NCBI GenBank assembly: GCA_030526045.1
Contig: JAUNDN010000018.1
Location: 1-48,185, forward strand
Source: Bacillota bacterium
Lineage (GTDB): Bacteria > Bacillota > Clostridia > Lachnospirales > Lachnospiraceae
Direction of reading: 5' to 3'
Length of the DNA: 48,185 nucleotides
The notes under the pieces are model-generated. The model saw only the letters and a list, made by a program, of their open reading frames with translations. It had not been told where the DNA came from and searched no databases. Made by a program: the position numbers and the translations under genes. Position 1 is the stretch's first letter, and each line of letters starts with the position of its first letter. Positions 1 to 4,188 of the stretch are shown here, in pieces.

Positions 1-337
1 ATTTTTTTAGCATTGCATCCATTTCTTTTTTTGTAAAAGCACGGCTATCTAGCATAATTTTACAAATTGCCAATATCTCACTGTTACTGAACTTCGTTTC
101 ATATATTTCTTCTAAACGATACCCCTTGTTTACCCTGTCATATATAATACTTCTTTCAGCACCAGTATTAACAACTGACTGCTCTAAAAAATTTCTTATG
201 TCATCGATATCTCTTTGTATACTTCTCTCATTAACCTTAAAATTGGCAGCTTCTTCAAATTTATTTATGATGGCCCCATCCATTAATCTCGAATAAATAT
301 CAAGAACTCTTTCAATTTTATCTGCACTACAATTCAA
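1..337 (-). CDS. WYL/YafY-type HTH transcriptional regulator, C-terminus outside window
   Basis: N-terminal 112 codons of a DNA-binding regulator that runs off the left edge. The start is read as TTG at 337, giving LNCSADKIERVLDIYSRL; the sequence AGGTGG lies about 7 bases upstream and the first in-frame ATG is well inside the domain. A winged helix-turn-helix of the DeoR/YafY kind is visible (FKVNERSIQRDIDDIRNFL, the recognition helix), followed by YDRVNKGYRLEE and then FSNSEILAICKIML, which is typical of the linker into a WYL domain. WYL proteins bind nucleotides or nucleic acids through the C-terminal domain and often regulate phage-defence or mobile-element genes. It lies about 100 bases downstream of the excisionase-like gene on the same strand, with an inverted repeat in the gap. 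The target is unknown; the WYL domain itself is not in view. Confidence 0.75.
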   Translation of the reverse strand, partial: MNCSADKIERVLDIYSRLMDGAIINKFEEAANFKVNERSIQRDIDDIRNFLEQSVVNTGAERSIIYDRVNKGYRLEEIYETKFSNSEILAICKIMLDSRAFTKKEMDAMLKK

Positions 338-410
338 AAAACCACCACCTTCGTATTCATCCAAATTATCCTTGAATTATTACTTATGAAGTTAGTTTAC
401 CAATTTACAT

Positions 411-670: not shown

Positions 671-699
671 AAAAAAGCACTGCCAATATTAGCAATGCT
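671..699 (-). terminator. riboswitch expression-platform terminator
   Basis: On the minus strand AGCATTGC (699-692) pairs with GCAGTGCT (683-676), an 8-bp stem with one G-U pair, followed directly by six T residues (676-671). The 5' arm can alternatively pair with GCAATG (710-705) at the end of the aptamer, forming an antiterminator that would exclude this hairpin. Confidence 0.75.
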
Positions 700-704
700 A
701 CCCT

Positions 705-770
705 CATTGCAACTGGCTACCATTTTACAGGTCCTATAGCTTTGCGTCACACCCTTTCGAATGCTTTGCT
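705..770 (-). promoter_or_regulatory. cyclic-di-GMP-I (GEMM) riboswitch aptamer
   Basis: Read on the minus strand this stretch has the conserved blocks of the GEMM-I class: AGCAAAGC, a stem closed by a GAAA tetraloop (CATTC-GAAA-GGGTG), the signature GACGCAAAGC, then CTATAGGACC and TGGTAGCC ending in AGTTGC. GCAA of the signature pairs with TTGC at the 3' end, and GGACC pairs with GGTAGCC, as in the known fold. A sigma-A promoter ends a few bases upstream (787-816). A terminator (671-699) and then the excisionase-like gene follow. The last GC of the aptamer is shared with a possible antiterminator helix, so ligand binding should favour termination (OFF switch). The sequence blocks are seen directly; the switching direction is inferred. 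A covariance-model search with Rfam RF01051 would settle the call. Confidence 0.85.
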
Positions 771-786
771 AAATATTTATGTATTA

Positions 787-816
787 ATTCTATACCCCCC
801 AGCGGAATTATGTCAA
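787..816 (-). promoter_or_regulatory. sigma-A promoter of the riboswitch transcript
   Basis: TTGACA (816-811) and TAGAAT (792-787), 18-bp spacer; TATAGA at 794-789 is the 16-bp alternative. Transcription would start near 780, just ahead of the GEMM aptamer. Confidence 0.65.
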
Positions 817-895: not shown

Positions 896-1690
896 CTATG
901 CACTTACTTCAAATCCGTTCTTGAAAATAAATCTTATGCCATTCTTTGCATTTACAACCATTTCCTGAACAAGGCTATTCCAAATTCCGGCATAAAACTC
1001 TTCGATTAAGCCATTCTGCTTTTCCAAAGTGCGAATGAACCCGTTAAATAATTCTCTCTTCGCCTTCTTGCTTTCAATCTGATCTGCGATGTCATCATAC
1101 TCTGCTTTTGCCTTTACATACCTTGCTGTAAGTTCAGCATAGCATTTTTCATACTCATCCTGGTCTAATGCTACCCGGCTGTTCTCTGCAATGGCAATCT
1201 GCATCTGCTCCGAGATGATGTTAAGTTCTGCGATGCTATCCTGTAAATCCCTATCAAGCGAATCCGTCTCACAGACCATTTCCATCATAACTTTGATGTT
1301 GGCTAGAATCTCTTCCCTTTCAGAAAATAACTCATTGGCCGCCTTGATGAACAATTCCTTTAACTCATCCTCATTGATGTGTGGCGTTTTGCACTTGCAG
1401 CCATCGGAATACTTGTTATTGCATCTGTAGATGACCTTTCTGTACTTGTCATTGGAATGCCAGACCTTGGCTCCGTACCAAGAACCACATTCTCCACACT
1501 TTATTATGGAAGAAAACAATCCAACACCACTATACTTCTGCATACCTTTTCGCCCTTAAAATTTCTGCCTGAACTTGGTCGAACTGGTCAGCTGTCACAA
1601 TGCCCTCATAATGTCCCTCCACATAGTACTGTGGTACTTCGCCATTGTTAACTACCAGCTTATGAGTTAAGAAGTCCTTTGTATGTTTTT
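896..1690 (-). pseudogene. large serine recombinase remnant (C-terminal part, frameshifted)
   Basis: The intact 3' piece (896-1543) holds the zinc ribbon (CGECGSWYGAK ... YRCNNKYSDGCKC) and the long coiled coil of large serine recombinases, ending in the usual NGIRFIFKNGFEV. Upstream, in a second frame, the typical domain-joining sequence LVVNNGEVPQYYVEGHYEGI can be read at about 1676-1546, and a further shift precedes it (KTYK then DFLTHK). At least two single-base frameshifts are therefore present, and the catalytic resolvase domain and most of the recombinase domain are missing. Homology fades near 1690, where the 53-bp repeats begin. The enzyme family integrates and excises mobile elements; this copy cannot be active. 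It marks the edge of an old integrated element beside comEC. Confidence 0.8.
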
Positions 1691-1983: not shown

Positions 1984-4188
1984 TTATTTTCTCTTATATC
2001 CTGCTACCCTCACTTCCTCTCCTTTCACCTTTATTTCAATCGCACCCAATTCATCTGTTCGCAGCACCCTCACCCCTGCCCGCGAAAGCCTCTCTAGGGT
2101 GTCTTCATGAGGATGTCCATACCGGTTGCCTGCTCCGCATGAAATAACAGCATAATATGGGGAAATCTGCCGCAAAAATTCCTCAGAAGTTGAATATGCA
2201 GATCCATGATGAGCTACCTTCAAAACTGTGTAACGATAATCTCCAATGCCTTCGCCAGTTTCATAAATATCCGAAAACAGTCTTCTCTCACCTTCTCCCT
2301 CCAGGTCTCCTGTGAGCAGTGCGTGAAAATTGCCATAGCTTACGTCCAGTACCGTAGAATATTCATTTGACTCCCCTGTAACATAACCCTTCTCAGGATG
2401 CAGGCAGGTCATGGTCAGTTTGCCGGCTCTTAATTGTTGACCTGCGCTGATATATTGAACCGGGACAGCCGCCCTCTCTGCAGCCAGTTCCAGCTCATGA
2501 TAAGCGTCCTCCCTGCTCTCCTCTCCGATGTCAGGTAAAATCAAGCAATCCACATGGATTCCATGCAGCATTCCTTCATCCAGCAGCTCCTTAACGCCAT
2601 TACAGTGATCCTCATCGGGGTGCGTTACGAATACTGCTTTCAAGCAATTTGTCCCCTGATACTTCAAAAACGGAATCAGCCTGTATTCTCCCACACTGTT
2701 TACGGAAGAACTCCCACCGTCAATCAGGAATCTGCTTCCATTTCCGCTATTGATATAAATGCAGTCCCCTTGTCCCACATCCAGAAAGGTAAGTTCAAGA
2801 CTCCCTTCCGGGCGCAGAATCAAAATCAAAACTGCTGCTACCATAATCAGCCAACGCACCAAAAGTGATACCTTTTTTCGCAGCAATACTACCAGCAATA
2901 AAGCAACCAGATATAAAACACTCTGCCAGACTTCCGGTTTTCCCAGATTGAGAAGATGTGCCGGCAGGTTTTCACTGTAACCGCAGACTGTCTCGTAGAT
3001 TCTAAATACCCCACTGATCAAATAGGCAAACGGTGCAGCAATTGGTTTACATAACACTCCTAATAGAAGTACAAGTAGCCCGGCTCCCATCAGATAGCTC
3101 ATAAGCGGAATTACCAAAAGATTTAATAGAATGGAATACGGTGGAAATTGATAATAAAACCACAGATAGATTGGCAAAGTAATTACTGCCATCCCCGGCG
3201 CCGAAAGAATTGCTGCTTCGATCTTTCCATACATAGGATTTGACACAGGTTTCCTTCGCTCTGTCAACGAAGGCATCACTAATGCTATTCCAAGCACACA
3301 TCCGAAGGAAAACACAAAACCGCTGTGATAAAAATATAGTGGCTGCTCAAGGAGAAGTAATACAGCGGCTACAGCTAATGCTGTTAACAGGTCATAGGTC
3401 CGCTCTGTCACAACGGCAAGCATATGTAATGCAAACATCAGGATTGCCCGGATTGCCGATACCGAAAAGCCTGTCATGATTCCGTAAAGCACCAGCGCAA
3501 AAGCGGCTAAAACCGCTGCCGCTTTCATTGGAACTGCGAATTTTCGAAGGAGTCTGTAAAGCCCCAGACCGAGCATGGACACATGCAGACCCGAAATTGC
3601 CAGTATATGTGCAATGCCGTTCCGCTGATAAAAGGCCTTCAAGTCCCTTTCAAGATCCCCTTTTTCTCCCAAAAGCATTGTCTTGATCAGAGCGCTTTCC
3701 TTTTCCGGAAGATTCTCCGAAAGAATCTGTGAAAGAAAGCACCGGAAACGGTACAGACCTTCCTTCATATGATCGTATTCAATTGACTGCTCCAGAATAA
3801 TTGCCTGATTCAGGCGATAAGAAATTCCAGATATCTGATAAAAAGAATAAGTATCGAATTGTCCCGGATTCGTAGCTTTTTCAAACGGTTTCAGTTTTCC
3901 CGAAAGTGTTACCAAGCTTCCTATCCCGGGCTCATTCTGTCCGGCTTTTAAATAGCATACTAGCTTTTTTAAGGCCGGTTCATCTGTGGACAGATTCTTC
4001 AGATATAAAACAAGCACCTGTCCACCGGGCTGCCTTACGCGTTCCTTCTTATAGATCTTTCCCGTCAGAGTCACTTCACTGCTTGGATTTCCATAATCAT
4101 CTTCGCACTTTCTTGGACTCAACAAGCAGGCAAGATACAAAAGGAGGATCAGCGCAAGGCACCCAAAAGCCAATGGGCGTTTTGCCAT
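1984..4188 (-). CDS. comEC: ComEC/Rec2-type DNA uptake channel
   Basis: 734-aa membrane protein that carries single-stranded DNA across the cytoplasmic membrane during natural transformation. The N-terminal OB-like DUF4131 domain (residues about 35-135) follows a first membrane helix. The competence domain with many membrane helices runs from about 175 to 460 (NGIAHILAISGLHVSMLG is its signature). A C-terminal metallo-beta-lactamase-like domain (about 465-734) keeps its metal motifs: HPDEDH at 523-528, TGDLEGEG near 627, HHGS at 660 and GHPHEDT near 691. Length and architecture are complete. The ATG at 4188 has AAGGG just upstream. It is the last gene of the comEA - regulator - kinase - gerM - comEC run and lies 31 bases after the GerMN gene. 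The sequence downstream of it is mobile-element debris rather than another housekeeping gene. Confidence 0.95.
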   Translation of the reverse strand: MAKRPLAFGCLALILLLYLACLLSPRKCEDDYGNPSSEVTLTGKIYKKERVRQPGGQVLVLYLKNLSTDEPALKKLVCYLKAGQNEPGIGSLVTLSGKLKPFEKATNPGQFDTYSFYQISGISYRLNQAIILEQSIEYDHMKEGLYRFRCFLSQILSENLPEKESALIKTMLLGEKGDLERDLKAFYQRNGIAHILAISGLHVSMLGLGLYRLLRKFAVPMKAAAVLAAFALVLYGIMTGFSVSAIRAILMFALHMLAVVTERTYDLLTALAVAAVLLLLEQPLYFYHSGFVFSFGCVLGIALVMPSLTERRKPVSNPMYGKIEAAILSAPGMAVITLPIYLWFYYQFPPYSILLNLLVIPLMSYLMGAGLLVLLLGVLCKPIAAPFAYLISGVFRIYETVCGYSENLPAHLLNLGKPEVWQSVLYLVALLLVVLLRKKVSLLVRWLIMVAAVLILILRPEGSLELTFLDVGQGDCIYINSGNGSRFLIDGGSSSVNSVGEYRLIPFLKYQGTNCLKAVFVTHPDEDHCNGVKELLDEGMLHGIHVDCLILPDIGEESREDAYHELELAAERAAVPVQYISAGQQLRAGKLTMTCLHPEKGYVTGESNEYSTVLDVSYGNFHALLTGDLEGEGERRLFSDIYETGEGIGDYRYTVLKVAHHGSAYSTSEEFLRQISPYYAVISCGAGNRYGHPHEDTLERLSRAGVRVLRTDELGAIEIKVKGEEVRVAGYKRK

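Follow-up and report, generated by a model that had tools for sequence, protein, structure and literature searches.

Most known c-di-GMP riboswitches belong to genes of motility, adhesion or the matrix, and in C. difficile there is also the case of a prophage antitoxin. What, then, would one of them control on an accessory segment, in front of a small helix-turn-helix (HTH) gene? This question is raised by one end of a 48,185-nt contig from a Lachnospiraceae bacterium, called the window below, where such a riboswitch had been predicted at positions 671–816. We propose that a c-di-GMP-I family riboswitch probably controls, via termination, an HTH gene and a WYL regulator gene heading an accessory operon, and that the three together constitute a mobile regulatory cassette.

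The riboswitch is confirmed by its Rfam family model and looks intact, as judged from its sequence. A cmscan of the 48-kb window, the check named in the original prediction, gave RF01051 at 780–705 of the minus strand as the sole Rfam match at the gathering threshold. The alignment spans all 87 model positions with a score well over the cut-off of 35 bits (Table 1) and an E-value of 1.2e-7, or 7.7e-10 when a 301-base stretch is scanned alone. The predicted GAAA loop, GACGCAAAGC and TGGTAGCC are all present. Of the predicted extent, only 705–780 is the aptamer proper, and 671–816 comprises the promoter, the aptamer and the terminator. No other RF01051 match was found in the draft genome (G000), which has 2.68 Mb and is about 90% complete. 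A second model, R1, scores the aptamer at 74.9 bits. Its 30 aptamer rows include the window, L060, L063, L069 and L066 (the L117 site), so these five match it by construction.

Table 1. Features at the riboswitch end of the window, in window coordinates
Feature	Position	Strand	Basis
WYL regulator, N-terminal part, start codon uncertain	2..364	-	PADLOC WYL 2.5e-6
HTH_17 protein, 70 aa	439..651	-	PF12728, 35.1 bits vs cut-off 27
Intrinsic terminator hairpin, then T6	676..699	-	10 pairs; -12.7 kcal/mol
GCAATG, aptamer 3′ end, complementary to CATTGC of terminator arm (antiterminator 2)	705..710	-	constrained fold
c-di-GMP-I (GEMM-I) aptamer, 76 nt	705..780	-	RF01051, 53 bits, full model
GCAAAGCTAT of aptamer core, can pair with terminator 5′ arm (antiterminator 1)	736..745	-	folding
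A at base equivalent to G20 of Vc2 / A14 of cGAMP riboswitch 4YAZ	770	-	alignment
Sigma-A-like leader promoter (TTGACA ... TATAGAAT)	787..816	-	11/12 consensus positions
Large serine recombinase, C-terminal remnant (zinc ribbon)	896..1543	-	PF13408, 53.3 bits
comEC-like gene, bordering the putative island	1984..4188	-	

The sigma-A-like promoter, TTGACA-18-TAGAAT, was found just upstream of the aptamer as predicted. In the region 400–1000, both strands taken together (601 bases), there are 3 promoter-like sites versus 1.8 expected in shuffles, the best being 816–787 of the minus strand. The match is thus weak alone, but its position just upstream of the aptamer counts for a putative promoter. 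By eye, TTGTTCGAG is common to the leaders of L143, L174, L175, L097 and L219 between their −35 and −10 boxes, and is a possible operator for autoregulation.

The terminator is the single terminator-like site in the same region and strands (699–676, minus strand; 0.2 expected per shuffle). A terminator follows the aptamer in all 11 leaders compared, 10 with intact aptamers and 1 with a decayed one, as located by script in 10 and by eye in L181.

Folding predicts two antiterminators. In the RNA preceding the terminator's 3′ arm, the minimum free energy fold of −20.1 kcal/mol pairs the terminator's 5′ arm with GCAAAGCTAT, and when two aptamer stems are held (−18.3 kcal/mol), the arm pairs with GCAATG. 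The full leader amounts to −27.0 kcal/mol as the aptamer stems plus the terminator and −23.9 kcal/mol with antiterminator 1 forced. The folded aptamer excludes either antiterminator, therefore the ligand should bring about termination. The same outcome had been predicted from the overlap of GCAATG with the aptamer end, and by folding it is expected via the pairing of either GCAATG or GCAAAGCTAT.

With the arms picked by eye in 11 leaders and compared with shuffled arms, the arm–aptamer pairing has p of 0.056 in the window and below 0.1 in 4 of the 11, but 0.90 in L117 and 0.77 in L181. Because this signal is modest, we only infer that the ligand favors termination. Most type I c-di-GMP switches of C. 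difficile terminate with ligand (PMC7699646). As to the window, the terminator's 5′ arm would pair with the aptamer in the absence of ligand, and RNA polymerase would read on into the HTH gene, the WYL gene and the cargo. With ligand, the folded aptamer would free the arm, the terminator would form and the operon would be off.

The two regulatory genes foreseen downstream are both there. The 70-aa HTH gene lies on the aptamer's strand and passes the cut-off of its family (Table 1). The gene of a WYL-type regulator follows, incomplete in the window since base 1 is also the contig end, and its remainder is on contig C75 (G000:C75:6–524), matching residues 145–317 of the L100 relative. The window and C75 pieces are 66% and 64% identical, respectively, to that relative, a 319-aa WYL protein that passes PF13280 (29.1 versus 21.8 bits), while the window's N-terminal part has no Pfam match.

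The HTH protein had been labeled excisionase-like. Were it the excisionase, or recombination directionality factor, of the element, the riboswitch would tie excision to c-di-GMP. The protein does belong to the HTH_17 family, and in C. difficile the prophage phiCD630-1 is excised through the action of an HTH_17-like protein, CD0912 (PMC7699646), a precedent for this reading. Moreover, one phage relative is annotated as excisionase (H9, 54% identity), and only 245 bp separate the HTH start from the recombinase remnant upstream. However, the protein scores 22 bits with TIGR01764 (NCBIfam), under the cut-off of 28.8 bits, and the neighboring recombinase is truncated. Window positions 1700–899 match residues 300–343 and 349–566 of the 566-aa L111 recombinase in two frames, and residues 1–299 have no match in the window and C75:1–14000 searched with serine recombinase queries. 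An excisionase would be expected beside an intact recombinase, but the same search shows the remnant only.

Relatives of the HTH protein also argue against excision. Their genes adjoin a WYL gene, in 14 distinct pairs with the window counted, or precede ABC-transporter-like, EAL/Wzz, AAA or AbrB/HU-like genes. Since the HTH protein is under the excisionase cut-off, the recombinase is truncated and the relatives pair HTH with WYL ahead of cargo, we prefer control of an accessory operon and regard excision tied to c-di-GMP as very improbable.

The decayed mobile element of the original prediction holds as an accessory segment with a broken recombinase, but not with the HTH gene as its excisionase. 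The genes beyond WYL, to which the prediction had also pointed, are on C75: a 419-aa protein gene and a 755-aa protein gene (L116), both in the same strand as WYL, with holA further on. Because comEC and holA are neighbors in many Firmicutes, the segment between the comEC-like gene on one side and holA on the other looks like an island. The 419-aa and 755-aa proteins have no Pfam family above its cut-off; the former has a weak match to PDC-M09B (7e-5) and no match in plasmids. The putative link from HTH to this cargo crosses the contig break. At L116 4939–5730 on C75, there is also a 263-aa open frame without a Pfam match. By eye it resembles a 7TMR-type protein in its N-terminal portion, with the sensor and membrane regions, and seems to be truncated.

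The recombinase remnant beside the riboswitch may instead mark the latter as a relic in a decaying element, its functional target lost. The cassette aptamers can decay, as at L175 (39 bits with R1), L086 (24.9 bits) and L179 (by eye), none of which reaches the Rfam cut-off. In the window, however, the aptamer core, the promoter and the terminator are kept, and no internal stop interrupts the HTH gene or either WYL piece, so a relic is an unlikely reading.

The unit of riboswitch, HTH and WYL is a recurrent cassette, not an isolated curiosity. Among 299 genomes of the family, RF01051 occurs in 110 (241 matches) and an HTH relative (E <0.001) in 178. Among the HTH loci listed outside the window's own, 4 of 29 have an R1 match, always just upstream of HTH, strong at L063, L066 and L069 and weak at L086. 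The aptamer is also found at L097 and L103, two loci of lower HTH identity.

A scan of the genome contigs with WYL gave the same association from the other gene. Among the 80 WYL loci listed of 354 relatives, HTH lies 240–272 nt upstream of WYL in 12, and 6 of these 12 have the R1 aptamer, that of L175 being the decayed one. No aptamer was found in front of WYL in the other 68 listed loci, which lack HTH, although in at least three of them (L148, L161 and L182) the 63 nt or less of DNA ahead of WYL is too short to show one. One other R1 row among the 80, L155, is on the opposite strand with E of 0.33. The chance of an aptamer upstream is about 5.5e-5 per gene, from 241 matches in 299 genomes with an assumed 2.9 Mb each, 400 nt and the same strand.

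An order-level search found matches in 50 of 392 genomes. Scanning 33 sources, 30 loci among the matches listed and 3 viral ones, added one new riboswitch locus, L219, while L217 (the same place as L100), L218 and L222 duplicate known loci. With the duplicates dropped and the window counted, there are 14 distinct HTH–WYL pairs among the matches listed. Seven have an intact aptamer: the window, L117 (Muricomes intestini), L143, L219, L166 (Inconstantimicrobium porci), L174 ([Clostridium] aminophilum) and L181, where the DNA of L143 and L219 is 88% identical so the two are not fully independent. As to the rest, L175 has its decayed aptamer, L179 has a remnant leader by eye, L171 is at a contig edge, and L124, L125, L130 and L147 have no aptamer trace. 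Since four pairs are without a trace and two with decayed ones, the riboswitch is dispensable.

Four more riboswitch–HTH loci, L095, L096, L097 and L103, have no WYL in the stretch fetched. The intact riboswitch–HTH loci are thus 11 in all, every one above the Rfam gathering score. Besides the window, L063 (in L095), L066 (in L100/L117) and L069 (in L096) score 51–71 bits and the other seven, including L060 (in L103), 48–72 bits. L143, L166, L174, L181 and L219, all confirmed by Rfam, are outside the R1 rows.

In a WYL tree of 84 rows, where the window is represented by the C75 piece only, the intact riboswitch rows fall in four separate places with 5 changes. This clustering is no better than that of shuffled labels, 350 of 500 shuffles having as few changes, and the bootstrap is not settled. 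The scatter may reflect reassortment or repeated loss but is not proof of them. The DNA of window 1–1700 matches three plasmid records, in the aptamer only. HTH relatives occur in 11 phage records and WYL relatives in 2 phage and 17 plasmid records. No aptamer was found at E <0.1 in 3 of the 17 plasmid WYL loci or in a phage record that has a HerA-like relative, and none of 8 viral contigs, with 3 HTH and 5 WYL relatives, has an Rfam aptamer match.

Near-identical 76-nt c-di-GMP-I aptamers are seen in several genera, at L042–L045, L047, L048, L050, L052 and L053, with two copies in two genomes. Such aptamers were considered as the same cassette and rejected, HTH being present at only 1 of 20 loci (L060).

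The cargo behind the cassette varies, from a dynamin GTPase, HerA-like ATPase and nuclease/SUKH set to a PDC-M40B-like protein plus AAA ATPase or unassigned genes. Downstream in L181 (8956–16889) are a dynamin GTPase, a 198-aa protein, a HerA/FtsK-like ATPase, a WHH/colicin-DNase-type nuclease and a SUKH protein; upstream are a phage-type cell-wall hydrolase (amidase plus glucosaminidase) and genes that on inspection resemble tail and holin genes. The dynamin is also in L166 and L175, the HerA-like ATPase also in L175, and the cargo of L143 and L174 resembles the dynamin-type sets by inspection only. L100/L117 has a 564-aa protein matching PDC-M40B (1.5e-16), a coiled-coil protein and an AAA ATPase.

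The loci without a WYL gene seen carry other genes: VanZ, a MotA/ExbB–EAL fusion, a SpaA-type protein and a Wzz/kinase in L095, a DUF4143 ATPase and PDC-S01 in L097 and, by inspection, ABC-type transporter genes in L096 and AbrB/HU-like genes in L103. A defense or toxin role of the cargo is suggested by names only. No paper on a WYL domain with dynamin and HerA was found among the titles and abstract openings of the open-licence literature. The riboswitch–HTH–WYL unit would move with different cargo on accessory segments, including at least one prophage-like region, and a single transcript may run through HTH and WYL, the presumptive regulators, into the cargo.

The A at position 20 of the window aptamer, a point absent from the original prediction, makes c-di-GMP a probable and not a certain ligand. 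In the alignment, the conserved GACGCAAA with A47 is present, as is C92. Position 20 is A where GEMM-Ib leads one to expect A and RF01051 leads one to expect G. This G touches one of the guanines in c-di-GMP but is not strictly defining, as 26 of the 299 family genomes have A20 copies. The Geobacter GEMM-Ib or 3′,3′-cGAMP riboswitches (4YAZ) likewise have A at the specificity position and C at C92/C75, whereas in the GCAAA junction and GACGCAAAGC the window aptamer agrees with the other aptamers aligned. The G20/A14 numbering of the specificity base follows PMC6274999 in part. Among the 11 intact cassette aptamers, A20 is in 3 (the window, L095/L063 and L181) and G20 in 8 (L117, L143, L219, L166, L174, L069/L096, L097 and L060/L103).

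An A20 aptamer may sense 3′,3′-cGAMP in the GEMM-Ib way, and the signal might be made by a CBASS-type cyclase, for example, or by a GGDEF enzyme of the Hypr type. The cGAMP riboswitches have A20; with A20G, a GEMM-Ib aptamer changes its ligand from cGAMP to c-di-GMP (PMC6456294), and a c-di-GMP-I G20A mutant binds cGAMP (PMC7288161). The SMODS nucleotidyltransferase domain, present in 12 of the 299 family genomes, has one match in L181's host and one in the window's host, the latter adjoining a small membrane-type protein by inspection. L095's host has one GGDEF (L258, G129:C37:52695–53177) reading FKQFNT, in which Thr replaces the usual Asp, a substitution we take to be Hypr-like.

On the other side, Asp is kept in 12 of the 13 readable GGDEF loci (22 in all) of L095's host, and its A20 switch heads EAL-domain and Wzz-type genes, which are usual for c-di-GMP. 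The window's host keeps Asp in all 17 readable of its 25 GGDEF loci, two of the 17 being the same protein, and its cyclase has CdnD as the only PDB match. The G20 majority among the cassette aptamers points the same way. A20 as a mark of the hosts with CBASS-type cyclases was also considered, with SMODS in 2 of 3 A20 hosts versus 0 of 9 others. This link was rejected because over the 299 genomes, A20 aptamers whose stem is paired are in 26 and coincide with SMODS in the window's own only, 1 versus about 1.0 expected. To be counted there, an A20 aptamer had to match over 30 nt and form 5 or all 6 of the stem pairs, an exact pattern that misses aptamers with other letters.

On contig C8 of G000, the SMODS gene (L215 685–1554, minus strand; CdnD at 3.4e-7) is followed by a gene for a 184-aa protein (L215 119–673, minus strand) with membrane stretches by eye, forming a CBASS-like two-gene pair.

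GGDEF is found at 25 places of the window's host genome (E <0.001), some two per protein, and c-di-GMP is therefore very likely made. c-di-GMP appears the likelier ligand of the window aptamer, and its sensing of cGAMP is rather unlikely. That the A20 cassette reads 3′,3′-cGAMP and a nucleotide from the host's CBASS-type cyclase or Hypr GGDEF switches the island's HTH–WYL operon is highly improbable, although if true, the RNA of a mobile element would sense an immune second messenger.

The window riboswitch resembles the others of RF01051 in the full-length match above the gathering score and the terminator platform, and differs from them in A20 and in the target: in place of genes for motility or adhesion, it precedes HTH–WYL of an accessory segment. 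The WYL regulators of the defense-associated loci (PADLOC WYL models) likewise head cargo operons, but the cassette has an HTH gene and an RNA switch ahead of WYL. Its nearest precedent is the prophage riboswitch pair of C. difficile. Cdi1_4 and Cdi1_5 in the phiCD630 prophages control the antitoxin RNA of a type I toxin–antitoxin pair (PMC7699646, PMC3649979 and PMC11477304); they too are c-di-GMP-I switches on mobile elements, with antitoxin RNA as their target. A description of the riboswitch–HTH–WYL cassette was not found in the open-licence literature, as seen in titles and abstract openings.

In the 299-genome survey, the cassette hosts are six. No other c-di-GMP-I match is present in four of them (G000, G038, G129 and G297), and the other two have 5 (G120) and 4 (G004) matches. 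Through the riboswitch–HTH–WYL unit, the accessory genes would follow the host's second messenger. For the study of ligand choice, the cassette also offers A20 and G20 aptamers that occur naturally in the same regulatory setting. If it recurs in several genera ahead of the dynamin/HerA/nuclease or PDC-M40B/AAA sets, the lifestyle messenger of the host would tune mobile cargo.
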